64,000 bases of DNA. Source: an archaeon (GTDB taxonomy: Archaea; EX4484-52; WAPT01). The stretch lies in contig JAPDKB010000009.1 in assembly GCA_029258795.1 (NCBI GenBank), positions 1 to 64,000 on the forward strand, in the 5' to 3' direction. The notes beneath the pieces were generated by a model. It saw only the letters and a program-made list of their open reading frames with translations, searched no databases and was not told where the DNA came from. Of the stretch, positions 29,949 to 60,228 are shown piece by piece. A program made the translations under genes and the position numbers. Positions within the stretch are counted from its first letter, which is position 1. Each line of letters opens with the position of its first letter.

Positions 29949-30065
29949 GGTGGGGGCCGGGATTTTCGGGATGTGTGTTGATTTTGGTGAGGAATTTTAC
30001 ACTTTCGAACCCGGGTCAGAGGCTCCACAGGCCTCCATTCTAGACCAGGCTAAACTACCCCCACC
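29949..30065 (-). tRNA. tRNA-His(GTG) with a T-loop intron
   Basis: The acceptor stem GTGGGGG/CCCCCAC is extended by an encoded G at -1 (30065) facing C73, the identity element of tRNA-His. The anticodon loop CTGTGGA gives GTG. The T-stem CCGGG/CCCGG encloses 48 nt rather than 7: TTCGA, then about 41 nt (29964-30004), then AT. The insert ends in CCCGAAA. CCA is not encoded. Confidence 0.9.
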
Positions 30066-30107
30066 ACAGAAACATAGTTTAAATTGGGAGGCATTTTTAA
30101 AAGTTTT

Positions 30108-31172
30108 TTAGGATTTTCTGATGACGAACTCGCAGAACTCATCACCCATGGCAATGCATTTCGTTTCTTCAGTGGAACATTCCTCACCGAAAAATAGATT
30201 GCCCCAACCCATCATGTAACCTCTAACGGCATCACAAACGGGCTTTGAAGTTTTCACACCCTTTTCAATATAAGTTTCAGCAAAGCCAGAATTGAAGAGA
30301 CGTACTATTATTTCATTCTTATCCATGGTTATAATTTTTGCGATGCCGAAACCCCAGATTCTGGAATAATATTGATCAAGGAATTTCTGCCACATTTTTC
30401 GCTTAGTTGAAAAAGTTGTGAACTCTTTCAAAATGAAGATATATAGTTGGAGGAGTTTGGATACTTTTTTGTACCATTCGGATGCCGATAATGAAATGAT
30501 TCCTGTGATGGAATCACCCATGATTTTCTTTCCTTCCTCCCTTATTGTGAAGTAAAAGCTTGACGGAACTATCAGCTCGGGCCAGCCCTTAAGCATATAA
30601 AATCCTTTATTGGTGTCCAGCTTCACCCCTCCGTAAGGCACCAAATTTCCTGATTGTTTTGGATGCGGTTTCTCGTCAAAATCCCAATTGGATGGGCTAT
30701 CCTCAATCTCAATTGAGAATCTGCATTTATCATCACCACGCGTAACGCATGAAATTTCCACACATCTGCTTTTCCGCCTAGTAGAGCGCTCAGCCAAACC
30801 CTCCAGCACACCTGCGATGTAATGACAGAATGGTGTTTTACGCTTTCCGAATTTTTTAACGAACCCTGTGGAGAAAGGTGTCTCGCGCGCCTCTACTATT
30901 ATCCTGTTCTTATTTTCCTTCTTTAAAGTATATTTTCCCAGCCCAAGCCATGTTAGGGATTCCACACTACTTTCCAACGAGCCGTTTTCAACAGGAACTA
31001 TGAGCGAGGCATCTTTACCTGCTTTGTGGAAGAGAAATCCAGCGGAGGCACCAACCAACCTTTCCATTTCTCTCTTCATGCTCTGAAAAATGTACGCATG
31101 CCTCAGCAGCACTCTGAATCCATTTACATATATCGCGCCCTTTTCCGGGTTGACTAGAATGTCCACGCTCAT
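30108..31172 (-). CDS. Protein with two V4R domains
   Basis: 354 residues made of two V4R modules. The first (residues about 15-180) ends with 'PFCHYIAGVLEGLAERS' and 'CVEISCVTRGDDKCRFSI'; the second (about 200-354) ends with 'PVCDAVRGYMMGWGNLFF' and 'ETKCIAMGDEFCEFVI'. V4R domains bind small ligands, so this is probably a sensor or carrier; it has no DNA-binding or catalytic domain. The ATG at 31172 is chosen because a TATA box (TTTTTATATA, about 31196-31206) lies just upstream with AAGGT near the start. Two single-V4R relatives sit at the left end of the window. Confidence 0.7.
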   Translation of the reverse strand: MSVDILVNPEKGAIYVNGFRVLLRHAYIFQSMKREMERLVGASAGFLFHKAGKDASLIVPVENGSLESSVESLTWLGLGKYTLKKENKNRIIVEARETPFSTGFVKKFGKRKTPFCHYIAGVLEGLAERSTRRKSRCVEISCVTRGDDKCRFSIEIEDSPSNWDFDEKPHPKQSGNLVPYGGVKLDTNKGFYMLKGWPELIVPSSFYFTIREEGKKIMGDSITGIISLSASEWYKKVSKLLQLYIFILKEFTTFSTKRKMWQKFLDQYYSRIWGFGIAKIITMDKNEIIVRLFNSGFAETYIEKGVKTSKPVCDAVRGYMMGWGNLFFGEECSTEETKCIAMGDEFCEFVIRKS

Positions 31173-31264
31173 GGTTACCTTATCTAGGTTAAAGCCATAT
31201 ATAAAAATTTTCGTTTTTTGTCGAATAAAAACGGGTAGGTGGAACAAAACTATTTTTAGAATGA

Positions 31265-31400
31265 TGGTGCGGGGGGTGGGACTTTCAGCTGCGAAGCCTC
31301 CAGCAATTATTCAGCTTTCTCCGCAGCATTCGAACCCACGAAGGCACTGAGCCACGGGACCCTGAATCCCGCGCCTTTGGCCAGGCTCGGCAACCCCCGC
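31265..31400 (-). tRNA. tRNA-Leu(CAG) with a T-loop intron
   Basis: Acceptor GCGGGGG/CCCCCGC, discriminator A and encoded CCA are present. The anticodon loop TTCAGGG gives CAG, and there is the long variable arm of leucine tRNAs. The T-stem GTGGG/CCCAC encloses 54 nt: TTCGA, a 47-nt insert (31283-31329), then GT. The insert has a 9-bp stem (GCTGCGGAG with CTTCGCAGC, one G-U pair) and is nearly the same as that of tRNA-Val. Confidence 0.92.
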
Positions 31401-31467
31401 ACTTCAAGCAAAGAACATGAATTAATTGCGCGCAAAAGTTAAAAATGATAGCACAAAGCTCCTTGAT

Positions 31468-31956
31468 ATGGGTGAGAGAAACGATAGAGAGCTCTTGCTA
31501 ATTTCCGCCTGTCTTTTTGGTCTGGATACCAATTACAAAGGAGAGAACAAAAGGCTTGAGAAGCTAGAAGAACTGCTGAAAGATTATATTTTGATTCCTG
31601 TTTGTCCAGAGCAGCTTGGCGGGCTGGAAACTCCAAGAGTTAGCGCGGAAATAGAAACCGGTAAAATCGGAAATGATGTGCTTGAAGGTAAAGCAAGGGT
31701 GATGAGAGAAGATGGTAAGGATGTTACGGAAAACTTCGTGAGAGGGGCTCAGCAAACTTTGACCATCTGTAAGATTCTTGGGATAAAAAAGGCATTGCTA
31801 AAAGAAAGGAGCCCATCCTGCGGTGTGAATGTAATCTATGATGGAACATTCAGCAGGAAGCTTAAGAAAGGAGAGGGTGTCACCACAGCGTTGCTCAGGC
31901 AACACAGCGTAGAGGTTTTCAGCGAGGAAGAGCTAGATAAACTCTTACGGTGTTGA
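31468..31956 (+). CDS. DUF523 family protein
   Basis: 162 residues. The family hallmarks are visible: the N-terminal 'LLISACLFGLDTNYKG', 'ILIPVCPEQLGGLETPR' and 'ALLKERSPSCGVNVIYDGTF' with its conserved SPSCG cysteine. DUF523 proteins are widespread, small and cytoplasmic, sometimes fused to DUF1722; their biochemical role is not established, though the conserved cysteines suggest metal or Fe-S binding. The ATG at 31468 is chosen; a TTG further up is less likely. The 3' end overlaps the end of cysS by 12 nt (convergent). Confidence 0.8.
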   Translation: MGERNDRELLLISACLFGLDTNYKGENKRLEKLEELLKDYILIPVCPEQLGGLETPRVSAEIETGKIGNDVLEGKARVMREDGKDVTENFVRGAQQTLTICKILGIKKALLKERSPSCGVNVIYDGTFSRKLKKGEGVTTALLRQHSVEVFSEEELDKLLRC

Positions 31957-33387
31957 AGCAGGATTCGATATTTTCCTCCATCTTACACCGCGCGGCGTGT
32001 CGAAAACAAGCACACCTCTCTTTCTCAGCTCATCTCTTATCCTATCTGCTTCCTCAAACCTCCTTTCCTTTCTCAGCTTTTCCCTTTCTTCAATCATCTT
32101 CATTTCTTCCACGTCCAGCCCTTCACTCCTCTCAAAATCCTCAAAAATGCCGAGCACGCTTGCAAGCTTCAGGAACTGGTCAAGCATGTGCTCCATAGCT
32201 CTTCTACTTTTTCTTTCTTCAGAATTAACGTACTTGTTGATAAAGCTGGCGAATTCAACCAGCACTCTTGTTGCTCTTGAGGCATCAAAATCATCATCCA
32301 TAGCTTCCTCAAACTCCTTAACAAATCTGTCAACTTCCCTTATTGCATCTTCATCAACCCATCCATCATCTTCTGTTGCGTTAATTTCAGCATCGAGCAT
32401 TTCCAAAGCGTTCTCAAGTTTTCTGTAAAGCTTCTCAGAGTCCTTTATTGCCTTTTCATCGAAATCCACAGGGTCTCTGTAATGCACGCTTGCCAAGAAG
32501 AATCTCAGCACACGAGCATCATATTTCTGTAGGAGCTCCCTCATCGTCACTATGTTTCCCAAGCTCTTGCTCATTTTCTCTCCTTTTATTGTGACGAACT
32601 CGTTGTGCATCCAGTAACGCACAAAGGTCTTGCCCGTTGCTGCCTCGCTCTGAGCTATCTCATTTTCGTGATGCGGGAAGATGAGGTCCTTTCCCCCGCC
32701 ATGAATGTCCAGCGTCTCTCCTAGATACTTCATGCTCATGGCTGAACATTCTATATGCCATCCGGGCCTTCCCTTCCCCCAGGGCGAATCAAACACACTG
32801 CCAACTTTATAATCTTCATCCTTAGCGGCCTTCCACAAAGCAAAGTCCCTCACATCTCTTTTGCGCGAGTCTGGCTCTATTCTGTGGCGCTTCAGCTCTT
32901 CAAGATTCTGTTTGCTCAGCTTGCCATAGTCCTTGAAGGAAGGCACATGGAAATACACGGTGCCATCATCAAGCACGTAAGCGTGACCTCTCTCAATTAT
33001 CTTTTCAATCAACTCAACGATCTCCTTTATGTGCTCCGTGACCTTCGGATAGTGATGCGCTTTCTTTATGTTCAGGGGCTCCACTATATCCTCAAAGAAC
33101 GCCTTAATGAAGAATTCCGAAACTTCCTTGAAGCTTTTCCCCTCTTTCAGAGCACGATTTATTATTTTATCATCCACATCAGTGAAGTTCTGCACAAAAA
33201 CAACTTCGTATCCTCTGTATTCCAGCCATCTCCTTATAACATCGAATGCAACACAACTTCTAGCATGCCCTATGTGACTGTAGTCGTAAGGAGTTATACC
33301 ACACACATACATCCTTACCTTTCCTCCCTCAAGCGGAACGAATTCTTCCTTCTTTCTCGTCATGGTGTTATATATCTTAATGGGCAT
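31945..33387 (-). CDS. cysS: Cysteinyl-tRNA synthetase
   Basis: 480 residues, class I. The HIGH motif is in 'GITPYDYSHIGHARS', the KMSKS loop is 'GEKMSKSLGNIV', and the zinc ligands are Cys in 'MYVCGITPYD', Cys in 'WHIECSAMSMKYLG' and His in 'GGKDLIFPHHENEIAQSEA'. The helical C-terminus is normal. It charges tRNA-Cys. The ATG at 33387 ('MPIKIYNTM') is selected since the longer frame runs into the divergent methyltransferase gene, only 54 nt away. Confidence 0.95.
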   Translation of the reverse strand: MPIKIYNTMTRKKEEFVPLEGGKVRMYVCGITPYDYSHIGHARSCVAFDVIRRWLEYRGYEVVFVQNFTDVDDKIINRALKEGKSFKEVSEFFIKAFFEDIVEPLNIKKAHHYPKVTEHIKEIVELIEKIIERGHAYVLDDGTVYFHVPSFKDYGKLSKQNLEELKRHRIEPDSRKRDVRDFALWKAAKDEDYKVGSVFDSPWGKGRPGWHIECSAMSMKYLGETLDIHGGGKDLIFPHHENEIAQSEAATGKTFVRYWMHNEFVTIKGEKMSKSLGNIVTMRELLQKYDARVLRFFLASVHYRDPVDFDEKAIKDSEKLYRKLENALEMLDAEINATEDDGWVDEDAIREVDRFVKEFEEAMDDDFDASRATRVLVEFASFINKYVNSEERKSRRAMEHMLDQFLKLASVLGIFEDFERSEGLDVEEMKMIEEREKLRKERRFEEADRIRDELRKRGVLVFDTPRGVRWRKISNPASTP

Positions 33388-33441
33388 AAAAGCTGATTTT
33401 GAAAGGAAATTATAAAAGAATTGTTCTTCTCCACCTTCTCC

Positions 33442-33951
33442 ATGGAGTTCTTCTCCCACATCTATGAAAGCTGGCGCGAAATGCAATATGAAAAGTACGA
33501 AGCAATTTTTCGCGAGCTTGAGAGTGCTAACGCGAGTGTGCGGGGAAAAACCGTTGTGGATGTTGGATCTGCACAGGGCTTCCTAATCGATTTTATGAGG
33601 GGGCAGGGAATACAAACCAAGCTGTATGTGGGAGTGGATGTTGATAAAAGCGCGATACGAAAGCTGAATTCCCAGCTCAAAATTTTGGCGAGCGCGGAAG
33701 CATTGCCGTTTAAAGAAGAGGTGTTTGATGTGATGTTCTGTATAGATGTGATTCACCTTTTGAAGGATAAGCTTGATCTTTCTCCGGTGAAGGAGGATGG
33801 GGTGGTTGTGGTTGCTCTACCATCCAGACATGAGAGCAAGTTGCAGAGGTTTGTGGAAGATATGAGCGCTGAAGGAATGGAAATGTTGAGCTCTTTTTCA
33901 ATAGAAGGAAAAGAAAGGGAGTGTGTGGTGGTGCTGAGGAAGAAGCACTAG
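33442..33951 (+). CDS. Class I SAM-dependent methyltransferase
   Basis: 169 residues. Motif I is 'VVDVGSAQGFLIDFM', the acidic strand after it is 'YVGVDVDKSAIRKL', motif III is 'SAEALPFKEEVFDVMFCIDV', typical of Methyltransf_11. The substrate is unknown; no targeting domain is present. The ATG at 33442 is preferred to TTG at 33421. It is divergent from cysS and ends overlapping the end of the next, convergent gene by 4 nt. Confidence 0.75.
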   Translation: MEFFSHIYESWREMQYEKYEAIFRELESANASVRGKTVVDVGSAQGFLIDFMRGQGIQTKLYVGVDVDKSAIRKLNSQLKILASAEALPFKEEVFDVMFCIDVIHLLKDKLDLSPVKEDGVVVVALPSRHESKLQRFVEDMSAEGMEMLSSFSIEGKERECVVVLRKKH

Positions 33952-34256
33952 CATTGTTGCTGGAGTTTTGTTGCGATTTCTCTTAGCTCTGCAGGGCTGT
34001 AGCTCTCATTCCTGTCCAGAAGCCTGGAGTAAACCTCCTCCAGCCTGCTGACCACGCTGTGCTCGCCCCTGTAGAACGAGTTCCAGAGCTTACCCGCTTC
34101 CCTGTAGTTCTCCAGTGTGCGCTTCAGCTTTTCCACATCCACACCAACCCTCTCCAGAACATGTCCATCGTTTTCAAGCAGGGTTTCGATGCTGTTTAAC
34201 AAGTCCGCGTACGAGAAAAAGCTATACTTCTTGGCTCTTTCCGAGGATAAATCCAT
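33948..34256 (-). CDS. Hypothetical helical protein
   Basis: 102 residues, charged and probably all helical ('VEKLKRTLENYREAGKLWN', 'RLEEVYSRLLDRNES'). No family is recognised and there are no cysteines that look like a metal site apart from the final residue. GAAGGGTG precedes the ATG at 34256, and a TATA-like CTTTATAAAC is found about 60-70 nt further up. It follows rlmH on the same strand. Confidence 0.6.
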   Translation of the reverse strand: MDLSSERAKKYSFFSYADLLNSIETLLENDGHVLERVGVDVEKLKRTLENYREAGKLWNSFYRGEHSVVSRLEEVYSRLLDRNESYSPAELREIATKLQQQC

Positions 34257-34331
34257 CACCCTTCATCCCACTCACCCCCTCCAGATTTTCTCGACAGGTT
34301 GAGATGTTAGGAAAAAGAAGTTTATAAAGTT

Positions 34332-34757
34332 TTATCCACGCGCAAAAGGCAGATTCTTCATGATGCATACGCATCTGTACAGCTGCTCCAGCAGGACTAT
34401 TCTTGCAAGTTGATGTGAGAATGTTAATCTAGAGAGTGAAAGTGTGGAAGAGGCAAGCTCCTTTATACTTTCATCCACGCCGTGTTTACCACCTATGATG
34501 AATGTTATATCACTGTTCAGCTTTTCTTTCAAAAACTCGCAGAAGTCGTGAGAGTTGAACTCCTCACCCCTCTCATCCAGCAAAACAACATAACCTTTAA
34601 GGTATTTCTTTATTTTTTCCGCTTCCTCCTCCACACTCCTGCCTTCCTTGAGCTCAACGATTTCAATCTTGAGGTGGGGCTGGAGAAGCGCCAGATAATG
34701 TCCCTGAGCATCCCGAAAATGGGATTTTAACTTACCCACACAAACAATTCTGGTCAT
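34332..34757 (-). CDS. rlmH: rRNA large-subunit methyltransferase RlmH (SPOUT family)
   Basis: 141 residues. The SPOUT trefoil-knot signature is 'DITFIIGGKHGVDESIKELA' followed by 'SLSRLTFSHQLARIVLLEQL', with the family ending 'NLPFARG'. In bacteria RlmH methylates pseudouridine 1915 in helix 69 of 23S rRNA; archaeal homologues are known but less studied. It lies directly after tRNA-Glu on the same strand (gap 24 nt). The usual bacterial ending is Pro-Tyr-His-Arg; here it is Pro-Phe-Ala-Arg, so the details of catalysis may differ. Confidence 0.85.
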   Translation of the reverse strand: MTRIVCVGKLKSHFRDAQGHYLALLQPHLKIEIVELKEGRSVEEEAEKIKKYLKGYVVLLDERGEEFNSHDFCEFLKEKLNSDITFIIGGKHGVDESIKELASSTLSLSRLTFSHQLARIVLLEQLYRCVCIMKNLPFARG

Positions 34758-34780
34758 TCAGAAACACCACAAAAACTGTT

Positions 34781-34899
34781 TGGTGCCCCCGCCGGGATTT
34801 TCAGCCGCTTATTCTCTCTCGAAGTAGAGCATGACGGCATTTGAACCCGGGTCATCGGCTCGAGAGGCCGATATCCTTGCCTGGCTAGACTACGGGGGC
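34781..34899 (-). tRNA. tRNA-Glu(CTC) with a T-loop intron
   Basis: Acceptor GCCCCCG/CGGGGGC, A73 and encoded CCA. The anticodon loop CTCTCGA gives CTC. The T-stem CCGGG/CCCGG encloses 49 nt: TTCAA, a 42-nt insert (34799-34840), then AT. The insert ends in GCGGCTGAAA and forms a GCCG/CGGC stem at its base. Confidence 0.92.
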
Positions 34900-34946
34900 A
34901 CAATAACTTGTATTAAAAAAGCAGGAGAATTTTAAATGTTTCGTCT

Positions 34947-35174
34947 TCACTTCTTACCTCTGCTCTCCGCCGGAAGCAAGAATCTGCGGTACAACGCTAT
35001 CTCATCAATGAAGTCCTTATGGGTTATCATCAAACTTCTGCAGCAATACCTTGTTATTCCGAGTTCGTCCAGCACTTTAGAAGGATGCTTTCCCTTCTTG
35101 ACTTCCTGCTGAAACTTTTCCCATTTGTCAGCAAGCACCTTCCCACAGGAGATGCATCTTATGGGTATGATCAC
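34947..35174 (-). CDS. rpoN: DNA-directed RNA polymerase subunit N (Rpb10)
   Basis: 75 residues with the zinc site 'IPIRCISCGKVLADKW' and 'ELGITRYCCRSLMITH'. It is a small assembly subunit of archaeal RNA polymerase. The start is GTG at 35174, with GAGGTGA 6 nt upstream. It lies at the end of the S13-to-RpoN ribosomal/RNA polymerase cluster, after S9, as is usual in archaea. Confidence 0.93.
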   Translation of the reverse strand: MIIPIRCISCGKVLADKWEKFQQEVKKGKHPSKVLDELGITRYCCRSLMITHKDFIDEIALYRRFLLPAESRGKK

Positions 35175-35227
35175 GATATCTCACCTCACAGATTAAAGGT
35201 GTAAATAGGGGGATGGAAATATCCCCA

Positions 35228-35635
35228 TCATCTGTAGCTGGTCTGTTTGATTCTTCTCGGACCCTTCTTTGACCTTGATGGTTTGTGGGGCTCTGTTCTT
35301 CTCGGATCGTAAACAAGCATACCCCTGTCATATTCGAGGAACTTCTTCTTCAAGCTCTCGCTTTTGGTCAGTCTGACCAAAGCCCTCGCTATCGCCATCC
35401 TTATCGCTTCAGCTTGAGCATTAATCCCACCGCCTTTCACCACAATATCCATGTCCACCTTCTTTATCTTATCCTCTCCAGCTATTATTATGGGCTCCAT
35501 GATCTTCAGCTTCAGCATTTCGGGCTTGTAAATATCAAGCAACATCTTGTTTATTCTTATGGTTCCACTCCCCTCCCTAACATACGCTCTTGCTACAGCC
35601 GTCTTTCTCTTACCTGTTGTAACAAAAGGTTTCAT
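35228..35635 (-). CDS. rps9: Ribosomal protein S9 (uS9)
   Basis: 135 residues. The start 'MKPFVTTGKRKTAVARAYVR' and the basic C-terminal tail ending 'RRIKQTSYR', which reaches the P-site tRNA anticodon, are diagnostic. The ATG at 35635 is preferred; the longer frame overlaps L13. The stop is 53 nt before rpoN. Confidence 0.95.
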   Translation of the reverse strand: MKPFVTTGKRKTAVARAYVREGSGTIRINKMLLDIYKPEMLKLKIMEPIIIAGEDKIKKVDMDIVVKGGGINAQAEAIRMAIARALVRLTKSESLKKKFLEYDRGMLVYDPRRTEPHKPSRSKKGPRRIKQTSYR

Positions 35636-35639
35636 AGTA

Positions 35640-36056
35640 TCACCACCTTGCACCCAACCATCTTGCAATGTCCTCAATTCTCACGAACTTCCTATCTCTG
35701 AGCTTGTCTGCGGTCCATTCGAGCTTGATCTTCTCAGCATCCTTATACTCGTCAGGTACGCCGATAAAGACCTTCACCCTTTTATATGCCTCTTTGCCGC
35801 GTGTTGTTTTGTATGGAAGCATCCCGCGTATTGCTCTTCTCACAATCCTATCGGGCATTCTGGGGAAAAACGGACCCTTGTATCTGTCTCCCACATCCCT
35901 TCTGGTTTTGTACTTATCTTTTATGTTCTCTTCATTCCCGCTTATTATGGCTTTTTCAGCATTAACTATAACGATTGTCTCTCCCTCCAGAGCTTTCTTC
36001 GCCACAAATGATGCCATCCTTCCCAAAATGGTGTCTGTAGCGTCTATAACCATCAT
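35640..36056 (-). CDS. rpl13: Ribosomal protein L13 (uL13)
   Basis: 138 residues: 'IDATDTILGRMASFVAKKAL', 'AEKAIISGNEENI', 'RGMLPYKTTRGKEAY'. Normal archaeal length. The start follows GGGTGA. It lies between L18e (7-nt gap) and S9 (4-nt gap), the conserved archaeal order. Confidence 0.95.
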   Translation of the reverse strand: MMVIDATDTILGRMASFVAKKALEGETIVIVNAEKAIISGNEENIKDKYKTRRDVGDRYKGPFFPRMPDRIVRRAIRGMLPYKTTRGKEAYKRVKVFIGVPDEYKDAEKIKLEWTADKLRDRKFVRIEDIARWLGARW

Positions 36057-36063
36057 TTTTCAT

Positions 36064-36432
36064 TCACCCTTTCATCAACCTTACTCCGCTTCCATTAGGG
36101 TTCTGTTCCAACAGGTCTCTTATAGGGAGCCACTTTCCTCCCGCTTCCTCAACTTTTTTTATGGCCGAAGGTGAAGCATCAAGTGATGCAACCACAAGTT
36201 TTTTGGTGAGATTCCCACCACCAAGCAGCTTGCCTGCCACAACAACAATCTCTCCTTCATTGCAGTACCTTTCCAGCTTTCCAACGTTTACGGGCTTCTT
36301 AATCCTTCTTGGCCTCTCAAGCTCATCTGCAAGCGCTCTCCACACCGGAGCTTTATTCTTCACGCTTGCTTTCCTCAATACCCTTATCAGCTCCCTCAAC
36401 ACAGGGTTGGTAGGGCCGGTCGGTTTCATCAT
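36064..36432 (-). CDS. rpl18e: Ribosomal protein L18e (eL18)
   Basis: 122 residues: 'KPTGPTNPVLRELIRVLRKA', 'VNVGKLERYCNEGEIVVVAG' and 'VASLDASPSAIKKVEEAGG'. The ATG at 36432 follows GAGGTGG; the upstream extension would run into the tRNA-Leu gene, whose 3' end is only 18 nt away. The tRNA and L18e are on the same strand, so the mRNA may begin at or be trimmed next to the tRNA. Confidence 0.95.
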   Translation of the reverse strand: MMKPTGPTNPVLRELIRVLRKASVKNKAPVWRALADELERPRRIKKPVNVGKLERYCNEGEIVVVAGKLLGGGNLTKKLVVASLDASPSAIKKVEEAGGKWLPIRDLLEQNPNGSGVRLMKG

Positions 36433-36450
36433 GCCACCTCCATAGCTGTA

Positions 36451-36570
36451 TGGTGCAGGGGGTGGGATTTCCACGCTTCCGTGCAATTATCGGAAGCGGT
36501 TCGAACCCACGACGGGCCTGCGCCCACCGGATCTTAAGTCCGGCGCCTTTGACCTCTCGGCCACCCCTGC
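36451..36570 (-). tRNA. tRNA-Leu(TAA) with a T-loop intron
   Basis: Acceptor GCAGGGG/CCCCTGC, A73 and encoded CCA; the long variable arm of leucine tRNAs; anticodon loop CTTAAGA (TAA). The T-stem GTGGG/CCCAC encloses 39 nt: TTCGA, a 32-nt insert (36469-36500) folding as CGCTTCCG with CGGAAGCG, then AT. It sits inside the ribosomal/RNA polymerase cluster between rpoD and L18e. Confidence 0.92.
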
Positions 36571-36611
36571 ACAGCCCAGCAATCTTCACTTTTTGTGTAT
36601 GATTTTTAAAT

Positions 36612-37421
36612 TCATTTAAGCTGAGCTTTAACCTTCTCCTCAAACTCGTTTATTCTTTCAATCACACCTTGCACAGCATTCATCACTATCTGTGCAGGGG
36701 TCAGGCCGGAAACGCTTTCAACGTTGAATATGATGTGTGAAGAGTCTCCACGCACCTTTATCTTGCCTTCCGATCTCTCCTCACACAGTCCGCAGAGATC
36801 ACAGAGATAAGGATCTTTCAACACAGCTTTTCCGTCCTTGATTTCCAGAGCTCCTCTCGGGCAGAGCTTTTTAGCATCCACCTTTCCATCGAGCTTTTCG
36901 CTCTCCACAACAGGGAAGTACTGATAACCAACGACAGCGCTCTGCCATCTCGCATGTCTCGTTGCCTTGTCGAGTATTGCAACGGCTTCCAGCTCAATCT
37001 CCTGTCCTTCAAGCAGCTTGACTATTATCTCATCTCCATAGACGGGAGCAACATCCGGATTGTTCGACACAAGGTCTTTAGCATAGACCACACAGGGCCC
37101 CTTTTTCTTGAGCAGGAGCTTTGCGGTACATTTCATACAACCTTCTTCCTTGTTGCAATCACACTTCTCTCTCGGCACGTAGCGAAGCGGATCGAATTTT
37201 AGAGGGATAAGTCCTATTCTGTGTGCAAGAAGCTCGTTGTAAAGAGCGGAAGTGTTCTTGATAATGTCCACAAACTCCACTGCCATCACATAAACCTCGC
37301 TGTACATGGCTCTCCTTATAGCGTTCGCTATTGCAGGATTTATTCCCTTAACCTCAAACCTGATCTTCTCACCATCATCCTCAAGAATTTTAACATCAAA
37401 TCCGCTCTTGGCTTTTACCAT
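36612..37421 (-). CDS. rpoD: DNA-directed RNA polymerase subunit D, with a [4Fe-4S]-type cysteine motif
   Basis: 269 residues. The alpha-like dimer domain is clear ('GINPAIANAIRRAMYSEVYV', 'LAHRIGLIPL'). An inserted ferredoxin-like domain (about residues 168-220) has 'KKLCPRGALEI' and 'YLCDLCGLCEE', giving one complete cluster motif (Cys-x2-Cys-x2-Cys plus a distant Cys-Pro); another cysteine group sits at 'EKCDCNKEEGCMKC'. Subunit D pairs with subunit L to start polymerase assembly. The Fe-S domain is kept in only some archaea, and its state could couple transcription to redox. Confidence 0.93.
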   Translation of the reverse strand: MVKAKSGFDVKILEDDGEKIRFEVKGINPAIANAIRRAMYSEVYVMAVEFVDIIKNTSALYNELLAHRIGLIPLKFDPLRYVPREKCDCNKEEGCMKCTAKLLLKKKGPCVVYAKDLVSNNPDVAPVYGDEIIVKLLEGQEIELEAVAILDKATRHARWQSAVVGYQYFPVVESEKLDGKVDAKKLCPRGALEIKDGKAVLKDPYLCDLCGLCEERSEGKIKVRGDSSHIIFNVESVSGLTPAQIVMNAVQGVIERINEFEEKVKAQLK

Positions 37422-37426
37422 TCACA

Positions 37427-37840: not shown

Positions 37841-37860
37841 CCACCATCACCACTTTTTCA

Positions 37861-38412: not shown

Positions 38413-38426
38413 ATATCAACACCACA

Positions 38427-39730: not shown

Positions 39731-39738
39731 ATAAAAGT

Positions 39739-41522: not shown

Positions 41523-41643
41523 TGGCGCCGCGGGCAGGATTTTCAGATGCGGGAAAATCAAAGTCCCACAACCTTCGAACCTGCGCGCCCTTACGGGCAC
41601 CGGCTCTCAAGGCCGGCGCACTACCAGGCTATGCGACCGCGGC
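41523..41643 (-). tRNA. tRNA-Ser(TGA) with a T-loop intron
   Basis: Acceptor GCCGCGG/CCGCGGC, G73 and encoded CCA; anticodon loop CTTGAGA (TGA); long variable arm GCCCGTAAGGGC. The T-stem GCAGG/CCTGC encloses 41 nt: TTCGA, a 34-nt insert (41541-41574) ending in CTGAAA, then AT. The 3' end serves as a putative attachment site. A TATA-like AATTTAAAAG lies near 41690. Confidence 0.92.
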
Positions 41644-50139: not shown

Positions 50140-50167
50140 CTCATCTCACCATCAAAAATCACGCAGT

Positions 50168-50551: not shown

Positions 50552-50562
50552 GATTCACACCT

Positions 50563-50790: not shown

Positions 50791-50795
50791 AACCA

Positions 50796-51353: not shown

Positions 51354-51378
51354 CCACACTCACCATCAAAAAGCATGA

Positions 51379-52514: not shown

Positions 52515-52528
52515 AACCATTCACCCCT

Positions 52529-52927: not shown

Positions 52928-52939
52928 ATGCGGCACCCG

Positions 52940-53356
52940 TTACGCTTCTTTCACCACTTCTATCACAACAAAGCTCTTGGTTTTGCTTAGCGGCTTACAC
53001 TCCGCAATTCTAACGATATCTCCTTCTTTAGCGTTTATGCATGGCGGGTTGTGTGCAGCCACTTTCGTTCTGCAGCGCATGTATCTCTTCAGCTTTTTGA
53101 TTTTTCTCAAGTATTCCCAACCAACAACAACTGTCTTATCCATTTTGGCTGAAAGCACCACACCCTGAAAAATCTTACCCCTTATCTTGAGGTGACCATG
53201 ATAAGGACATTTTTCATCATTACAAACCTTCTTTGGCGGGTTTTTAACCTCAATACCTATATCCCTTATTTTTATTTTCACTTCTTTTTTCTTCTCAGCA
53301 GTCTTCTTACCACTACTTTCGCTCTTCTTTCCTTTTTGGGCTGTTTTCTCAGCCAT
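52940..53356 (-). CDS. rps17: Ribosomal protein S17 (uS17)
   Basis: 138 residues: the OB-fold core has 'CNDEKCPYHGHLKIRGKIFQ', 'KMDKTVVVGWEYLRKIKKLK' and 'KEGDIVRIAECKPLSKTKSF'. A 25-residue Lys/Ala-rich N-terminal extension ('KKSESSGKKTAEKKKEVKIK') resembles the tails of S3 and L32e. The start overlaps the Rpp29 stop. Confidence 0.94.
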   Translation of the reverse strand: MAEKTAQKGKKSESSGKKTAEKKKEVKIKIRDIGIEVKNPPKKVCNDEKCPYHGHLKIRGKIFQGVVLSAKMDKTVVVGWEYLRKIKKLKRYMRCRTKVAAHNPPCINAKEGDIVRIAECKPLSKTKSFVVIEVVKEA

Positions 53357-53654
53357 TCAATCCACCCCATATTTTTCGTGGAAACCTTTTCTTTATCCTA
53401 TCTTCGGGCCTGCCCTGAATCACCTTACCATCCACTTCCACCACGCTCCCATCCGGAAGCGTGAAGTGGAACACACAGTTCTTCTTTTCAACCCTGATCT
53501 CCCTGCCATCTCGCTTTCTTATCACAAGCGTGTTTTTCGTTTCATTTATGACTTGCCCTTCAACCCCCACAAGCGTGGGGTCACTGCTTTTTACTATTTT
53601 AACATCGAGGCCTATGAGCTCATGCCTGACGAGGTTCTCTGGCTTTATTGGCAT
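53349..53654 (-). CDS. rnp1: RNase P protein component 1 (Rpp29/Pop4)
   Basis: 101 residues: 'NLVRHELIGLDVKIVKSSDP', 'GVEGQVINETKNTLVIRKRD', 'KNCVFHFTLPDGSVVEVDGK'. This Sm-like protein pairs with Rpp21 to bind the specificity domain of RNase P RNA (23596-23920 here). Its place between SUI1 and S17 is standard for archaea. Confidence 0.93.
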   Translation of the reverse strand: MPIKPENLVRHELIGLDVKIVKSSDPTLVGVEGQVINETKNTLVIRKRDGREIRVEKKNCVFHFTLPDGSVVEVDGKVIQGRPEDRIKKRFPRKIWGGLNG

Positions 53655-53658
53655 CGGC

Positions 53659-53964
53659 TCACTCCACTATCGAGCTTTCCGGAAAGCCCTCCTCGATGAG
53701 CATCTTTTTGACCTTCAGGCGATGATCTCCCTGCAGTTCTATCTTACCGTCCTTGTAGGTACCACCACATGCAAGTTTTTTCTTGAACTTCTTGAGCAGT
53801 GATTTGATGTCTATGCTCTTTTCATCAAGCCCTTCTATAATCGTTATGGTTTTGCCGAATTTCCTCTTTTCCACATAAATTTTAATTTTCTGCTTTTCCC
53901 TCGCTATGGTTTCGCAGATGCACAGGTCTTTTGGAAGACCACAAACATTACATATCTCCGTCAT
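53659..53964 (-). CDS. Translation initiation factor 1 (SUI1/eIF1)
   Basis: 101 residues. An N-terminal zinc-type motif '[17 protein letters not shown]' is followed by the SUI1 fold '[20 protein letters not shown]' and '[20 protein letters not shown]'. It acts at start-codon selection on the 30S subunit, relevant to the apparent ATT start of S26e. It overlaps the L29 stop by 4 nt. Confidence 0.93.
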
Positions 53965-54173
53965 TTCTTACTAAGCACCTCTTTTTCCCTTTTTATGGTC
54001 AATATCCTTGCTATAGTTCTTTTTATCTCTCTGACCTTACCTGGATTGTCCGGCACGCCTCCCACCTTTGCCTTTGCTCTTTCTTTCATCAGCTCCATTC
54101 TCAAATCTGCGAGTTTCTTCTCAAGTTCTTCGTCACTCATGTCTCTTATCTGTGTTGCCTTGAGTATTGCCAT
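53961..54173 (-). CDS. rpl29: Ribosomal protein L29 (uL29)
   Basis: 70 residues: '[20 protein letters not shown]' and '[19 protein letters not shown]'. Two-helix hairpin near the exit tunnel. Follows S3 with overlapping ends. Confidence 0.93.
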
Positions 54174-54175
54174 GA

Positions 54176-55066
54176 TCATTCACCACTTTTCTTTTCCTCA
54201 TTTTTCTTCACAGAGCCCGAAGCATCAGCATCGGATTTCTTTCCCTTATCCATACCTTCCTTTTTCTTGACCTCTTTCTTCCTCTCATCACCCTTCTTCT
54301 CAGCCGTCTTCTTTTCCGCTTTTTTTGCCTTCTCCTTTACAGCGTTCTTCTCATCACTCCCTTCCTTTGTTTCCTCAACCTTTTCCTCCTCCTTCTCAGC
54401 TTCCTCCTCTTCCTTATCCTCTTCTTTCTTTACCGCGAACTTCTTAATGATGTCCTCACTTATTTCTACTTCTCCCCGCGCAACTCTCTTTTCAAGTTCC
54501 ATCTCAGGAGGCATAAAAGGCATTATTTCGACCTTTACTCCGATAACTCCCGGCTTGAGCACGGCTTGTTCCTTCGCAACATCCACGTATTCCTGAGCTG
54601 GATGTCCGCATTTCATGACATAACCAGCAACATACTTTTCTGTTCTGTGTCTCTCTCCCGTGAGCTTCCCGCTTACATCTATTTCAACACCAACCGCTCC
54701 AGCTTCCATGATCCTGTTGAGATACATGGTGACTACGCGCTTATAGTGCAAGCCCCTTTCAAGAGCGAATTTTATGCGTTTGGCAACCACCTTTGCATCA
54801 AGATAAGGATTATCAACACCTTTAACCTCTATCTGCGGGTTCTCTATGCCAAACTCCTCCTTCATTTTTTCCTGAATCTTGGCTATTCTTTCTCCACCCC
54901 TACCTATGACAAGTGCGGGTCTTCCAGCATATATAACTATTCTGGTTGCCAGAGGAGTCCTCTTAATCTCACACCGGCTGTACTCCGCTCTATCCAGCTC
55001 TTTATCCAAAAATTCAGCTATCTTCATGTTCACTATTCCTTCCTGAACGAACTTTCTCTCTATCAT
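54176..55066 (-). CDS. rps3: Ribosomal protein S3 (uS3) with a long Lys/Glu-rich C-terminal tail
   Basis: 296 residues. The KH domain ('[20 protein letters not shown]') and C-terminal domain ('[20 protein letters not shown]', '[20 protein letters not shown]') end by about residue 215. The last 80 residues are a charged tail ('[20 protein letters not shown]', '[14 protein letters not shown]') shared at DNA level with the L32e gene. Archaeal S3 tails vary, but this copy-like sharing is unusual. Confidence 0.94.
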
Positions 55067-55073
55067 CCTTCCT

Positions 55074-55505
55074 TCACCTTTGCTCCAAAACTACTGAGAT
55101 GTGCACGCTCTTTCTTTTCTGCCCTCTGAGGGGTGAGCGCCTTGGCCTGTAAAATGTGGGGGCTTTCATCACCAAAAATGATTTGATGAAGAGCTTTGAA
55201 ACATCAAGTCCCTGATTCTCAGCGTTTTTCACAGCACTGTTGATGAGATCAAGTATTTCCTTTGCAGCGTTAACTGGATACCTTCCAGCCCCGATACCTG
55301 GCTTGTGAGCCACATCTCTGTTGAACCTGCCGAATGGCACAGCTCTCTTCATCTCAATGACATCCTGAAGGAAGCGCCTTGCTTTCTCAACGTTCATTCC
55401 CTTTATAGCTTTTCCTATTTCCACAGAGGCTTTCCATGAAATCCTTACATACCTTTTGCATGCTCTTGCCATTCTTGAAGGATCGTAATCCTGCACGTTA
55501 TACAT
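55074..55505 (-). CDS. rpl22: Ribosomal protein L22 (uL22)
   Basis: 143 residues: 'RISWKASVEIGKAIKGMNVE', 'GIGAGRYPVNAAKEILDLIN', 'PTFYRPRRSPLRGQKRKSVH'. It lines the exit tunnel. Between S19 and S3. Confidence 0.94.
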   Translation of the reverse strand: MYNVQDYDPSRMARACKRYVRISWKASVEIGKAIKGMNVEKARRFLQDVIEMKRAVPFGRFNRDVAHKPGIGAGRYPVNAAKEILDLINSAVKNAENQGLDVSKLFIKSFLVMKAPTFYRPRRSPLRGQKRKSVHISVVLEQR

Positions 55506-55517
55506 CTCGGCTCACCT

Positions 55518-55907
55518 TCACTTCCTACCTACGTGCTTTGTTGATTTGGATGCACCTATACCTGGACCGCTGTGCTGCACGGGCTTTCTGGTTAGAGCAA
55601 ATTCTCCCAACCTGTGCCCTATCATTTCAGCGGTTATGGTGACGGGCACAAACTCTTTACCATTGTGGACGCCTATAGTGCGCCCCACCATTTCGGGCAG
55701 GATGATCATGTCTCTGCAGTGAGTTTTTATGAACTTGTCCTTGGAGGTTTTCCTTATTTTTTGAAGCAGCTTCTTCTCAGCTTCAGTGAGCCCTCTCTTC
55801 AAGTGTCTCCTAGCCCTTGCTGTCAGTAATTCAGCTAACTCTTCCAAGCTCATCTTCTGCAATTCTTCAAGCGTGTAACCTCTGAACCTGAACTCCTTTC
55901 GAGCCAT
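55518..55907 (-). CDS. rps19: Ribosomal protein S19 (uS19)
   Basis: 129 residues: '[20 protein letters not shown]' and '[20 protein letters not shown]', '[20 protein letters not shown]'. Normal archaeal length. Confidence 0.95.
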
Positions 55908-55914
55908 TTACCAT

Positions 55915-56628
55915 TCACCTCTTCCTTCTACCGGTTCTTCTCGCGGCTATGCTACCCACCTTTCTGCCGGGCGGTGCACGCCTGCTAACAGTTTTGGGCA
56001 CACCAAAGCTCTTACCACCGAACTTGTGATCACATGCGTTCATGGCTTTAGCCCTCGTTCTCGGGTACTTCTTACCTCTCGCATGCATCGCGTGCCACTT
56101 ATTGCCAGCTTTCACAAATGGCTTTTTCGGCCTCTCTCCACCTGCAACTATACCTATTGTGGCTCTGCAGTTCGGATTGAGCCCCTTGGTTTTTCTTGAT
56201 GGGAATTGCACTGTGACTTTATCAACATCTCTTGAAAGGACTATGGCATAACCACCGCTTGCCCTCACGAGCTTTCCACCATCGCCAGGAACAACCTCTA
56301 TGTTAAACACGGGTGTACCTTCAGGTATGTCTTTAAGGGGCAGCACATTCCCTATCTTTAGCTGTGCTCCCTCTCCAACTTCCACAACGTCTCCCGTCTT
56401 CACACCTTCACTTGCAATGAAATACCATTTCTCACTCGTGCCATCGAATTTAACGAGTGCAAGAGGAGCTGTTCTGCCTGGATCATCCACTATATCTATT
56501 ATCTTACCTTTAAGGTTGCCCTTCTGAAGGGGAGGATATTTAACATCAGCAACGTAGTTGAAGCTTGGCACTAAGTAGGTTTTGGATACGCCCCTTCCAC
56601 GGCGCTGAGCGATTATTCTTGTACCCAT
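55915..56628 (-). CDS. rpl2: Ribosomal protein L2 (uL2)
   Basis: 237 residues: 'GTRIIAQRRGRGVSKTYLVP', 'GNVLPLKDIPEGTPVFNIEV', and the peptidyl-transferase-proximal 'GGKSFGVPKTVSRRAPPGRK'. Essential for subunit joining. Confidence 0.95.
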   Translation of the reverse strand: MGTRIIAQRRGRGVSKTYLVPSFNYVADVKYPPLQKGNLKGKIIDIVDDPGRTAPLALVKFDGTSEKWYFIASEGVKTGDVVEVGEGAQLKIGNVLPLKDIPEGTPVFNIEVVPGDGGKLVRASGGYAIVLSRDVDKVTVQFPSRKTKGLNPNCRATIGIVAGGERPKKPFVKAGNKWHAMHARGKKYPRTRAKAMNACDHKFGGKSFGVPKTVSRRAPPGRKVGSIAARRTGRRKR

Positions 56629-56643
56629 ACATCACCACCATCA

Positions 56644-56922
56644 TCAGATTATGCCTAATTTAGCAGCTATGTCTGTAGCATTGTAATCCTTGCTTACGGC
56701 TATGTATGCCTTCTTCCTGCCCTTCGCATCTATCAACGTTCTAACCTTTCTGACCTTAACCTTAAACATGTTTTCAAAAGCTTTCTTTATCTTTTCCTTG
56801 TTAGCTCTTCTATCCACTATAAATGTTATGGTGTTCTCCCTCTCTATGAGAGAGATTGCCTTTTCTGTAAGCACGGGATAAAGCAACACTTCAAATGGGT
56901 CGTTAACCTTAACTTCAGCCAT
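56644..56922 (-). CDS. rpl23: Ribosomal protein L23 (uL23)
   Basis: 92 residues: 'VLLYPVLTEKAISLIERENT', 'DRRANKEKIKKAFENMFKVK' and 'KKAYIAVSKDYNATDIAAKL'. It forms the docking site for SRP at the exit tunnel. Follows L4 by 1 nt. Confidence 0.95.
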   Translation of the reverse strand: MAEVKVNDPFEVLLYPVLTEKAISLIERENTITFIVDRRANKEKIKKAFENMFKVKVRKVRTLIDAKGRKKAYIAVSKDYNATDIAAKLGII

Positions 56923-56923
56923 T

Positions 56924-57751
56924 TCAGCTCACCGCGAAAAGCTTTTTCTCCTCCAGCTCTTTTATGGCATTCTCACTCCAGATGCTCAACCTTCCTGCAT
57001 GACCACCCGGAGCCAGCATCTCCACGTTGAGATCCTTCACAAGGCAGACATCAACACCGGGTATGTTTCTTGCTGCCTTGAATATTCCATCATCCTTACT
57101 CACCACTATGAGGGGGCCTTTCCTCTTCTTGTATCTCCTTCCTCTCATCTTACCCTTTCCGGCCCTGTATCTTTTCTCGCGCACCCTTTCCAGCTCTTCC
57201 TCCAGACCCAGCTTTTTGAGCAGGTTTTCAAGCTCTTTTGTCTTCTTCACACTTTCAAGCTCGCTAACAACGACTATTGGTAGCTTTTCAACTTTATCCG
57301 CTCTGTGTCCTCTCTTAAGCACGAGGGTTTTCCTTGCAAGAGCGGCTATGGCAGCAAGTATAGCTTTCCTCCTCTCCTTCTTGTTTATCTTCTGCTCCCA
57401 CTTCTTCTCAGCTTTTGGTGGATGAGCTTTCCTACCCTTGACAGCATGTGGCACAAACCTCACAACTCCGGTCATGTGGCCTGAACCAACTCTTATGCGT
57501 GGCAGCCTCGCTATACCTCTGTTTATCCAGGCCCCGTAAGCGCCTCTTCTTCCTCTGTAATCAGCACTAGTTCTCTTTCCTGCCAGAGGATCAGCTCCAT
57601 AGGGCTGCCTCCTGTGGCTCATGATGGCAAGGAAAGCTCTGATTATGAGATCATGCCTTACCTCCTCGCTGAAGTGCTCGGGGAGAGTGATCTCGCCCTT
57701 CTTGCTTCCGTCCAGACCATAAACAGGAACTTTCAACTCAGCCATAGCCAT
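56924..57751 (-). CDS. rpl4: Ribosomal protein L4 (uL4)
   Basis: 275 residues: 'SHRRQPYGADPLAGKRTSAD', 'IARLPRIRVGSGHMTGVVRF' and 'LVKDLNVEMLAPGGHAGRLS'. The extended loop lines the exit tunnel. Begins 1 nt after L3. Confidence 0.95.
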   Translation of the reverse strand: MAMAELKVPVYGLDGSKKGEITLPEHFSEEVRHDLIIRAFLAIMSHRRQPYGADPLAGKRTSADYRGRRGAYGAWINRGIARLPRIRVGSGHMTGVVRFVPHAVKGRKAHPPKAEKKWEQKINKKERRKAILAAIAALARKTLVLKRGHRADKVEKLPIVVVSELESVKKTKELENLLKKLGLEEELERVREKRYRAGKGKMRGRRYKKRKGPLIVVSKDDGIFKAARNIPGVDVCLVKDLNVEMLAPGGHAGRLSIWSENAIKELEEKKLFAVS

Positions 57752-57752
57752 T

Positions 57753-58760
57753 TCACCATATCAGCTGCTTGATCTCGGGAGGTTCTGTTGGGGGCTCATG
57801 AGACCTTATAGCATATCTTATCCTCACCAATCTCTTTGATGGCCCAGGAACAGAACCATGGATAATTATATAATCTGATTTCACAACACCATAGTGTTTC
57901 CAGCCACCGGGTCTTGCAACACGGGAAGCGTCATTTCCAACCTCCATAATCCACTTGTTGTACTCGGTCCTTGTGTGATACCCCATCTGACCCATCTGAG
58001 GAACGGTCCACATAGTTCTTGCAGGGTGCCATGGACCGAGAGTTCCAGCTTTTCTCCTTACCTTCCTTGCCTTGTGGTGCAGAAGCTTCACACCAAATCT
58101 CTTTACGGAGCCCTGGAATCCCTTACCCTTGGTAACGGCCGTGACATCAACAAAAACACCGGGAGAAAAGACATCGGAAATGCGAAGTTCCTTGCCGAGA
58201 AGGGAGGAAACCTCATCGAGAACAGCAGAAAGGGAATCAGAAGCAGAATCGGAAGAAGCGTCGTTTACCCAGTTTGTGGGGAAATAGTGAATCTCAAAGA
58301 TCTCAGGTGTCTTCTTTCCTATTCCTGCAAGCTTCGGCTGCGTTGCAACAATCAGCTTAACCTTATCAAAACCATTTTTGACCTTATCAAGCACAGCATT
58401 TTTATCCTTGTTCGGCTTTATTCCGGTTATTTTTCGTGCAACCTCCTTGTCTATCTTCTCACTCCACAGTTCTGTTATTGCTTCGTATCCATATGGTGTC
58501 TTTTTATAGAAGCGAGCAGCAAGAACCTTGAGAGGTGGTGTTTCTATCAGGGTTGCGGGCTCCACAATTTCCTTGTTCTTGAACATACCCTCCCTTTTTT
58601 CTATGTAATCAACCTGAAGCATCCCTACTTTGTATCCGGCAAATTCCACCACATTCTTGCCATCAACAGCAGGAACATGCCTGACTCTAGCATAAATGCG
58701 CTTAGCCCTAACTCTGGGGGAAAACTGCAATGATCCTCTCCTCGGGTGGTAATAGCTCAT
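57753..58760 (-). CDS. rpl3: Ribosomal protein L3 (uL3)
   Basis: 335 residues: 'YYHPRRGSLQFSPRVRAKRI', 'VTKGKGFQGSVKRFGVKLLH', 'ARTMWTVPQMGQMGYHTRTE'. It is the first gene of the super-operon. The ATG at 58760 is chosen; GTG two codons upstream is possible. Confidence 0.95.
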   Translation of the reverse strand: MSYYHPRRGSLQFSPRVRAKRIYARVRHVPAVDGKNVVEFAGYKVGMLQVDYIEKREGMFKNKEIVEPATLIETPPLKVLAARFYKKTPYGYEAITELWSEKIDKEVARKITGIKPNKDKNAVLDKVKNGFDKVKLIVATQPKLAGIGKKTPEIFEIHYFPTNWVNDASSDSASDSLSAVLDEVSSLLGKELRISDVFSPGVFVDVTAVTKGKGFQGSVKRFGVKLLHHKARKVRRKAGTLGPWHPARTMWTVPQMGQMGYHTRTEYNKWIMEVGNDASRVARPGGWKHYGVVKSDYIIIHGSVPGPSKRLVRIRYAIRSHEPPTEPPEIKQLIW

Positions 58761-59003
58761 TTCCACACACCACGCAGCATATTCATGGCTCGTAGCTTGT
58801 GTTCACAAGATTTGTAATCATGAAAATGATAACATTTAAATATTTTGGTGATATCTGGCTGGAGGCAACAACCTATACATACCCTCATACAAAAAAAGCG
58901 ACAGCTTTTAATCAAACACCAAAATTTTTAAACGTTGTTATTCTCGCCTTCACGACTTTAAAGAAAAAATATTTTTAAAGTAGCGTCGGCAATAAAATAC
59001 CCA
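58761..59003. promoter_or_regulatory. Divergent promoter region upstream of the L3 operon
   Basis: 243 nt without a gene. On the minus strand AAAATATTTAAATG (58833-58846) is a strong BRE/TATA candidate for the ribosomal operon, leaving a leader of about 60 nt with a CTTGTG/CACAAG hairpin. On the plus strand AATATTTTTAAAG (about 58968-58980) can serve the divergent membrane protein gene, nearly leaderless. A second minus-strand TATA-like GTTTAAAAATTTT lies near 58930. Confidence 0.55.
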
Positions 59004-59603
59004 ATGACTGAAAAACTCAGCGAAAAGGTGAAGAAATTCCTTGTAGTGAAAAAGAAAGTAAAACTGGAGGAAATATCCAGCTATAAAACTCAGATTCTCA
59101 TAATAGGGTCAACGATTTCCTTCCTTCTCGGAGGTTTTGACCTCTTACTTCCTTTTCTTCTTGCATGGTTTTCATACTTTATATTTGAGAGTTACGCATG
59201 GGAATTTGGTTTGGATAATCTTGGGGTGGAGCTCATAACACTGGCATGTGTGCTCGTGGGGATGAAATTCGAACCAGCATTTTCCTTCATTTACGCGTAT
59301 GTTACAATAGGCACAATGTCATCCATAGCAAAGTTTGTTGATCCCGACTCCGATGAGATATCAAATCCATTCGGAAGCTATGCTTTTGGGTATGGTGTTG
59401 CTGCGCTTTCAGCATCTTATCTAGCAGGCAACCTACCTTTCCCAGAACTTCTGGTTGCTTCTGCCATACTTGCCAATCTCGCGAGATTTGCTTTTGACCT
59501 CTTGGTTTACAGAAGTATTGATGATATTATATGGAGGGTGGGTAATATTTTCTTTAACTGCATTATTGCAATGTTCTTTTCATTTCTCAGCATGGTTATC
59601 TAG
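59004..59603 (+). CDS. Hypothetical integral membrane protein
   Basis: 199 residues with five or six membrane helices ('ILIIGSTISFLLGGFDLLLP', 'FLLAWFSYFIFESYAWEFGL', 'LITLACVLVGMKFEPAFSFI', 'ELLVASAILANLARFAFDLL', 'NIFFNCIIAMFFSFLSMVI') and a basic N-terminus. No family is recognised. The last 24 nt overlap the end of the convergent acetyltransferase gene. Confidence 0.65.
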   Translation: MTEKLSEKVKKFLVVKKKVKLEEISSYKTQILIIGSTISFLLGGFDLLLPFLLAWFSYFIFESYAWEFGLDNLGVELITLACVLVGMKFEPAFSFIYAYVTIGTMSSIAKFVDPDSDEISNPFGSYAFGYGVAALSASYLAGNLPFPELLVASAILANLARFAFDLLVYRSIDDIIWRVGNIFFNCIIAMFFSFLSMVI

Positions 59604-60080
59604 GGTTTTTCGCAATCTTGTGTAGATGGGCGTGTATTTTCGTTTCTCGTAAAATCTGATCGAGTTGTGATTTCCAACGTAAGCGTCAAGCTCAACAATT
59701 TTGATGTCCATCTCATGCGCTTTCTTCTCGGCTGCTGAAAGCAATGCACTCCCCACCCCTTTGGAACGCCACTCTTCAACCACATAGATATTATCTACAT
59801 ACAACACCTTTTCCCGCCTATAGATTCCAGCATAAGTTATGACTCTCCCGCTCACCACACCGATAATCTTCCCATCCTCACTCTCAGCCACGAGCAACAA
59901 TTTCGTACCCTTTTTCATACCTCTAATACAAGAGTTAACGTAGTTCTTCAGGCTACCCTCACAATCATCTCCACTTTTGAGAAGGGGATCGTAATACCTC
60001 TCCTCTTCCTGCATCAGCTTGAAAAGTCGCAGTATATGGTCCGAGTCATCATCTTCGGCTTCCCTTATTTCCGCATGCAT
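59580..60080 (-). CDS. GNAT family N-acetyltransferase
   Basis: 166 residues. The acetyl-CoA loop is 'VEEWRSKGVGSALLSAAEKK' (the R/Q-x-x-G-x-G/A pattern), preceded by 'YVDNIYV' and followed by 'VELDAYVGNHNSIRFYEKRK'. The layout is that of RimI/ArsN-like N-acetyltransferases; the acceptor (a protein N-terminus, amine or antibiotic) is unknown. It lies between the membrane protein gene (convergent) and tRNA-Val. Confidence 0.8.
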   Translation of the reverse strand: MHAEIREAEDDDSDHILRLFKLMQEEERYYDPLLKSGDDCEGSLKNYVNSCIRGMKKGTKLLLVAESEDGKIIGVVSGRVITYAGIYRREKVLYVDNIYVVEEWRSKGVGSALLSAAEKKAHEMDIKIVELDAYVGNHNSIRFYEKRKYTPIYTRLRKTLDNHAEK

Positions 60081-60110
60081 GAAGGGATCACACCATCAAA
60101 CAAAAATCTA

Positions 60111-60228
60111 TGGGCCGGCCAGGATTTTCAGCTGCGGAGTTCCAGCATATTCAGCTTTGCTCCGCAGCAATCGAACCTGGGACCTCTCCCGCGTCAGGGG
60201 AGCGTCATAACCCCTAGACCACCGGCCC
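60111..60228 (-). tRNA. tRNA-Val(GAC) with a T-loop intron
   Basis: Acceptor GGGCCGG/CCGGCCC with A73; anticodon loop CTGACGC (GAC). The T-stem CCAGG/CCTGG encloses 52 nt: TTCGA, a 45-nt insert (60126-60170), then AT. The insert has a perfect 9-bp stem (GCTGCGGAG with CTCCGCAGC) and ends in CAGCTGAAA. CCA is not encoded. Confidence 0.92.

Follow-up and report, generated by a model that had tools for sequence, protein, structure and literature searches.

One T-loop site holds predicted bulge–helix–bulge introns in about two thirds of the tRNA genes of an EX4484-52 archaeon

We analyzed a 64-kb stretch of archaeal DNA (positions 1 to 64,000 of contig JAPDKB010000009.1, assembly GCA_029258795.1; hereafter the window, with its genome called G000) in which tRNA genes are interrupted in the T-loop. 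Judged from sequence, the inserts are very probably bulge–helix–bulge (BHB) introns excised at a junction between tRNA positions 59 and 60 and spread by means of a motif half that T-loops share. The same site is occupied in 30 of the 46 tRNA genes assigned to G000, about two thirds, bearing out the striking preference for one T-loop site that an earlier reading of the window (the original prediction) had proposed. A structural scan found exactly eight tRNA genes in the window, all on the minus strand, and confirmed that six carry T-loop inserts of 32–47 nucleotides (nt), with no other irregularity in the acceptor, anticodon or T stem. The predicted lack of anticodon-loop introns holds for these six genes (0 of 6) but not for the whole genome, where some tRNAs combine T-loop and anticodon-loop introns.

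In the structure that we propose, the T-stem of the precursor tRNA would serve as the outer helix, a central 4-bp helix would arise from pairing of T54-T55-C56-R57 with four bases near the intron 3′ end, either YGAA or a wobble variant (TGGA, for example), and the intron's own hairpin would provide the inner helix. Nucleotides 58–59 and the first intron base would make up the 5′ bulge, and the last two intron bases and T60 the 3′ bulge. The splicing endonuclease EndA would cut each 3-nt bulge after its second base, which is what would put the junction at 59/60, and RtcB would join the exons into a normal seven-base T-loop. The preference for the T-loop would follow from its near-identical sequence in every tRNA, which supplies the exon half of the motif: one intron end therefore fits them all, so that a homologous intron family could spread from tRNA to tRNA within the lineage. 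We infer cleavage and ligation of these introns, and likewise their mode of movement, from comparative evidence. The six genes, with their predicted introns, are as follows.

29950–30064, minus strand: tRNA-His(GTG), T-loop intron at 29963–30003 (41 nt); central helix TTCG:CGAA with 4/4 pairs, inner helix weak (1 contiguous bp); the spliced form is letter-identical to the exons of the G002 His gene, which also bears an intron there.
31269–31400, minus strand: tRNA-Leu(CAG), T-loop intron at 31282–31328 (47 nt), the exact span matched by the intron-family model R2; strict BHB with a 9-bp inner helix; Leu(CAA) on contig C3 carries the same intron, letter for letter.
34785–34899, minus strand: tRNA-Glu(CTC), T-loop intron at 34798–34839 (42 nt); strict BHB with a 5-bp inner helix.
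36455–36570, minus strand: tRNA-Leu(TAA), T-loop intron at 36468–36499 (32 nt); strict BHB with an 8-bp inner helix and G-U wobbles in the central helix.
41527–41643, minus strand: tRNA-Ser(TGA), T-loop intron at 41540–41573 (34 nt); central helix 4/4, one inner-helix mismatch after the first pair; orthologs uninterrupted in both G001 and G002.
60112–60228, minus strand: tRNA-Val(GAC), T-loop intron at 60125–60169 (45 nt), again matched exactly by model R2; strict BHB with a 9-bp inner helix.

We assessed the motif in the 49 T-loop introns of three congeneric genomes (G000, G001 and G002). After the T-stem comes TTCR, whose partners are the four bases preceding the 3-nt 3′ bulge: the central helix (T54-T55-C56-R57 with a YGAA-type intron 3′ end) has all four pairs in 40 of 49 introns and at least three in all 49, and 30 combine strict 3-4-3 spacing with 3 or more bp of inner helix. 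Altering the length of the 3′ bulge nearly abolishes the central helix (0–1 of 49), and altering that of the 5′ bulge leaves 0–3 strict motifs. Shuffled inserts yield a mean of 0.06 strict motifs (maximum 2) against the 30 observed, which excludes chance. In pair counts from 17 genes the T-stem and central helix are 100% paired, with A57 facing U and G57 facing U or C. Beyond these three genomes, 32 of 33 tRNA-like matches from two outgroup genomes and the order's other families also have a full central helix, after eight further script matches outside tRNA genes were excluded by eye. The original prediction of BHB introns thus stood, whereas its description of them as relaxed did not: most are strict, and within the window all six introns have the full 4-bp central helix and four a contiguous inner helix of 3 bp or more. 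Two other candidate explanations were rejected. No window insert has an Rfam match to a group I intron, and inserts of 16–59 nt are too short, group I introns usually exceeding 200 nt; permuted or split tRNAs do not apply, as the 5′ and 3′ parts are collinear and adjacent in every gene. In other archaeal groups, T-loop introns at C2:56141-56244 of genome G037 and C3:9601-9702 of genome G039 follow the same TTCR:YGAA rule.

The original prediction had placed the insertion after A58, a placement that comparison with congeneric genes rejects. Six genes are informative, meaning that the 58/59 and 59/60 products differ and that a congener has an ortholog with an uninterrupted T-loop: Val(GAC), Gly(CCC), Leu(TAG) and Leu(GAG), which were matched to their orthologs automatically, and Trp and Leu(CAA), which exceeded the automatic distance limit owing to anticodon introns and were read from fetched sequences. 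All six favor 59/60, base 59 of the uninterrupted ortholog matching only that product. For Val(GAC), excision at 59/60 reproduces the uninterrupted G002 tRNA and excision at 58/59 fails to; spliced Val(GAC), Thr(GGT) and Gln(TTG) are letter-identical to intact G002 genes. This identity between predicted splice products and uninterrupted orthologs, the endonuclease motif at nearly every site and the presence of genes for EndA and RtcB make it most improbable that mature tRNAs keep the inserts as an enlarged T-arm, and a retained T-loop insert would upset the elbow contact between the D- and T-loops. Fold, covariation, empty orthologs equal to the spliced product and the two enzymes together back the earlier identification of noncanonical archaeal BHB introns.

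Genome-wide, tRNA genes were located with a split-tRNA covariance model and sequence patterns in the G000 assembly (1.17 Mb, 23 contigs, 96% complete), which yielded the 46 genes and, on a bacterial-looking contig (C11), four more. The count of 30 T-loop inserts comprises 29 scored by script and Leu(CAA), whose model match was trimmed and which was added by hand. The congeners carry far fewer, at 9 of 35 detected tRNA genes in G001 (one of them known only by a 74-nt match, too short for an insert) and 10 of 37 in G002, and the search may have passed over genes interrupted in unusual ways at several sites, above all in these two genomes. A DNA pattern for the strict motif, which covers only some T-stems and gives relative counts, matched 13 times in G000 against 0 for a reversed control pattern; it matched 1–7 times in many other genomes of the order, not at all in two families of the order, and, across 200 genomes from a different archaeal phylum (probably Thermoproteota), at most three times in any one. 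With so many tRNAs hit, and with a 96%-complete assembly that may hide a few genes, one might suppose that the interrupted genes are in decay or silenced and that intact copies elsewhere do the work, but this is highly unlikely: for no interrupted isoacceptor do the 46 genes include an intact second copy, bar a doubtful Gly(TCC), so that the refuting condition of intact duplicates set out with the original prediction does not hold; the exons are conserved with congeners, some to identity; and between G001 and G002 the inserts that both have differ at 10.2% of positions against 1.4% for the remainder of the gene, a roughly sevenfold faster divergence. The odd, possible duplicate of Gly(TCC), at C3:58040-58109, is a tRNA-like sequence with A for U at position 33, and has no counterpart among the detected G001 or G002 tRNA genes.

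To relate the introns to one another, we clustered them by local alignment against shuffled introns, accepting links above the maximum of 6,000 shuffled comparisons. Eleven G000 introns, in tRNAs for nine amino acids, form one homologous family with six congener introns, and similar introns recur in other families of the order. When the genome was searched with a model of this family, the eleven best matches all lay inside tRNA T-loops; the search found no free-standing copy outside tRNAs, the extra match spanning 22 bases with E 0.05. Ala(CGC), Cys, Gly(CCC), Gly(TCC) and Val(GAC) have empty congeneric orthologs, and recent gain in the G000 lineage is therefore the simpler reading of these sequences, although loss in the congeners is possible for any single gene. 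Such pairs of filled and empty congeneric sites make archaeal intron gain directly testable.

How the family spread is less certain than what it is. The introns may have been carried by gene conversion among tRNA genes and not by movement of the intron itself, a possible but doubtful route: Leu(CAG) and Leu(CAA) have in common an identical intron together with flanking T-stem and acceptor sequence, and the shared 7-nt GGTTCRA could still seed short conversions, but near-identical introns also lie between unlike T-stems (CCAGG in Val, CCGGG in Ala(CGC)), and the Val exons, once spliced, are identical to the intact G002 gene, which means that the intron brought no exon tract with it. Tentatively, and with low confidence in reverse splicing as the route, we suggest that the family could be a mobile one aimed at a single site in almost any tRNA: EndA and RtcB, acting in reverse, would return an excised intron to RNA at the T-loop, with TTCR as the docking sequence, and the insertion would be fixed in DNA later. 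If true, the T-loop would act as a general landing pad for introns of tRNAs, and an alpha4 enzyme would be implicated in how the noncanonical ones spread. A different cause of the site preference, published as a hypothesis for tRNA introns generally (PMC4090602), is that the intron destroys integrase attachment sites and so guards against mobile elements; we consider this unlikely, since the motif rule accounts for the site without it.

G000 has one EndA gene, encoding 197 amino acids with one Pfam match and a single catalytic domain, and across the order each genome has at most one match, to a single alpha-type gene of ~185–285 amino acids; RtcB is present (E 2e-175). When modeled, the EndA of a congener is structurally closest to the M. 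jannaschii alpha4 enzyme (1A79; Z 24.3, 1.8 Å over 170 residues, 39% identity), with catalytic subunits of (alpha-beta)2 enzymes next at Z ~21–23. Because these scores are close, the fold alone does not settle the type of assembly and the single gene weighs more; on this modeling EndA is apparently alpha4-like and would act as a tetramer. Reviews describe alpha4 EndA as narrow in specificity, taking mainly strict BHBs, and credit only (alpha-beta)2 and epsilon2 enzymes with removing relaxed motifs efficiently (PMC6379350), and the strict majority of the introns fits such a narrow enzyme. We also considered a lineage-specific lysine loop akin to the ASL/CSL of broad enzymes, but make no such claim, as the lysine is not conserved in all families; the EndA loop at the comparable place is about four residues longer in the order than in M. 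jannaschii. Genome G039 has a 387-amino-acid EndA frame with two matches to the EndA family.

Several points weigh against the proposed explanation. About ten introns have an intact central helix but a poor inner one, and nine have three of four central pairs, although one of these, Leu(CAA), failed in the count through padding that left its end short by one base, its intron being the strict Leu(CAG) intron. Given the narrow specificity described for alpha4 enzymes (PMC6379350), these weak-motif introns would need either tolerance by EndA or an unseen factor. All genomes studied are metagenome assemblies. Finally, the sequences indicate that the family is not strictly bound to the T-loop: Arg(TCT) and Arg(CCT) carry mutually homologous D-loop inserts that are related to the T-loop family, scoring up to 29–34 against T-loop introns of the order where the shuffled maximum is 26. 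The Arg(TCT) gene lies in the window and was absent from the interrupted genes named by the original prediction; with its insert counted, Ala(TGC) is the only whole tRNA gene there.

23289–23410, minus strand: tRNA-Arg(TCT), D-loop intron at about 23340–23387 (48 nt); T-loop intact; ortholog in G002 uninterrupted.
27866–27938, minus strand: tRNA-Ala(TGC), uninterrupted, between the 16S and 23S rRNA genes.

Elsewhere in G000, D-loop inserts occur in Arg-CCT (C3:79312-79432), Arg-TCG (C1:64112-64272) and Val-CAC (C2:52503-52623).

Introns of this kind are already known, and it is their distribution and not their chemistry that is unusual. Position 59/60 is listed among many noncanonical tRNA intron positions (PMC4090602), Pyrobaculum calidifontis has 71 introns in 46 tRNA genes (PMC8450103), and in Thermoproteales the occurrence of similar introns across tRNAs was taken as a sign of large-scale transposition (PMC4033280). 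The original prediction named Thermoproteales as precedent, which holds for the intron type but not for the lineage, here DPANN. By the summaries of the Thermoproteales work (Sugahara 2008, Fujishima 2010) in PMC4033280 and PMC4090602, both systems share noncanonical BHB positions, introns common to different tRNAs, recent gain and presence or absence between close genomes (here 30/46 against 9/35 and 10/37), whereas Thermoproteales have many positions, up to three introns per tRNA and a broad heteromeric (alpha-beta)2 endonuclease, and here one site dominates, with some D- and anticodon-loop introns, beside a single, apparently narrow alpha4-like EndA. Among Asgard genomes, for which up to 92–95% of tRNA genes are given as intron-containing, Atabeyarchaeia and Freyarchaeia resemble G000 in a very high, often noncanonical, share but differ in having multiple introns in more than half of genes, and the passages of that study compared here (PMC11291895) describe no one-site rule. 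ARMAN-2 (Micrarchaeum) is likewise a DPANN host with noncanonical tRNA introns, but its enzyme is a three-unit epsilon2 with a lineage-specific loop (PMC12397907), unlike the single alpha-type gene here. Canonical 37/38 introns share the BHB geometry, the enzymes and an exon-supplied part of the central helix, there anticodon bases (PMC4090602); here, in contrast, the position differs and the conserved T-loop serves as the exon half, which lets one intron end fit every tRNA.

In the literature compared, we did not find described the dominance of one site in a DPANN order, the T-loop rule or such an intron load with an apparent alpha4 EndA, parts of which may already be noted in key Thermoproteales papers outside that literature. 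The pattern suggests a rule for where noncanonical introns settle, namely that the exon half of the splice motif must pre-exist, as the T-loop offers it in nearly all tRNAs, and it challenges the view that many noncanonical introns need a broad-specificity endonuclease. It also has a practical side: of the eight window tRNA genes ARAGORN finds three and Rfam at its gathering score two, as expected from the earlier remark that such genes are easily missed, and standard finders can thus overlook much of the tRNA set in genomes of this kind.

The host, which is uncultured, is probably a DPANN archaeon near Nanohaloarchaeota, in phylum EX4484-52. After the congeners, the next EndA relatives in a scan with the EndA alignment are mostly recorded as Nanohaloarchaea, Aenigmatarchaeota or DPANN metagenome-assembled genomes, and the GTDB phylum EX4484-52 is closely related to Nanohaloarchaeota (PMC9765267). 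Contig C11 is probably a bacterial contaminant: its positions 1-1500 hold uninterrupted Thr(TGT)-Tyr-Gly(TCC)-Thr(GGT) genes in a bacterial-type order beside an open reading frame resembling a sodium/phosphate cotransporter.

Anticodon-loop introns occur beside the T-loop family. tRNA-Leu(GAG) (G000 C2:63833-64001) has one in all three congeneric genomes and a T-loop intron in G000 only. Those of elongator Met (C2:176578-176706), Trp (C2:24474-24643) and Leu(CAA) (C3:113043-113223), which have orthologs in G001 and G002 too, carry C/D-box-like motifs (TGATGA ... CTGA) and may contain nested guide RNAs, an arrangement known for the Trp intron and less usual for that of Leu(CAA).

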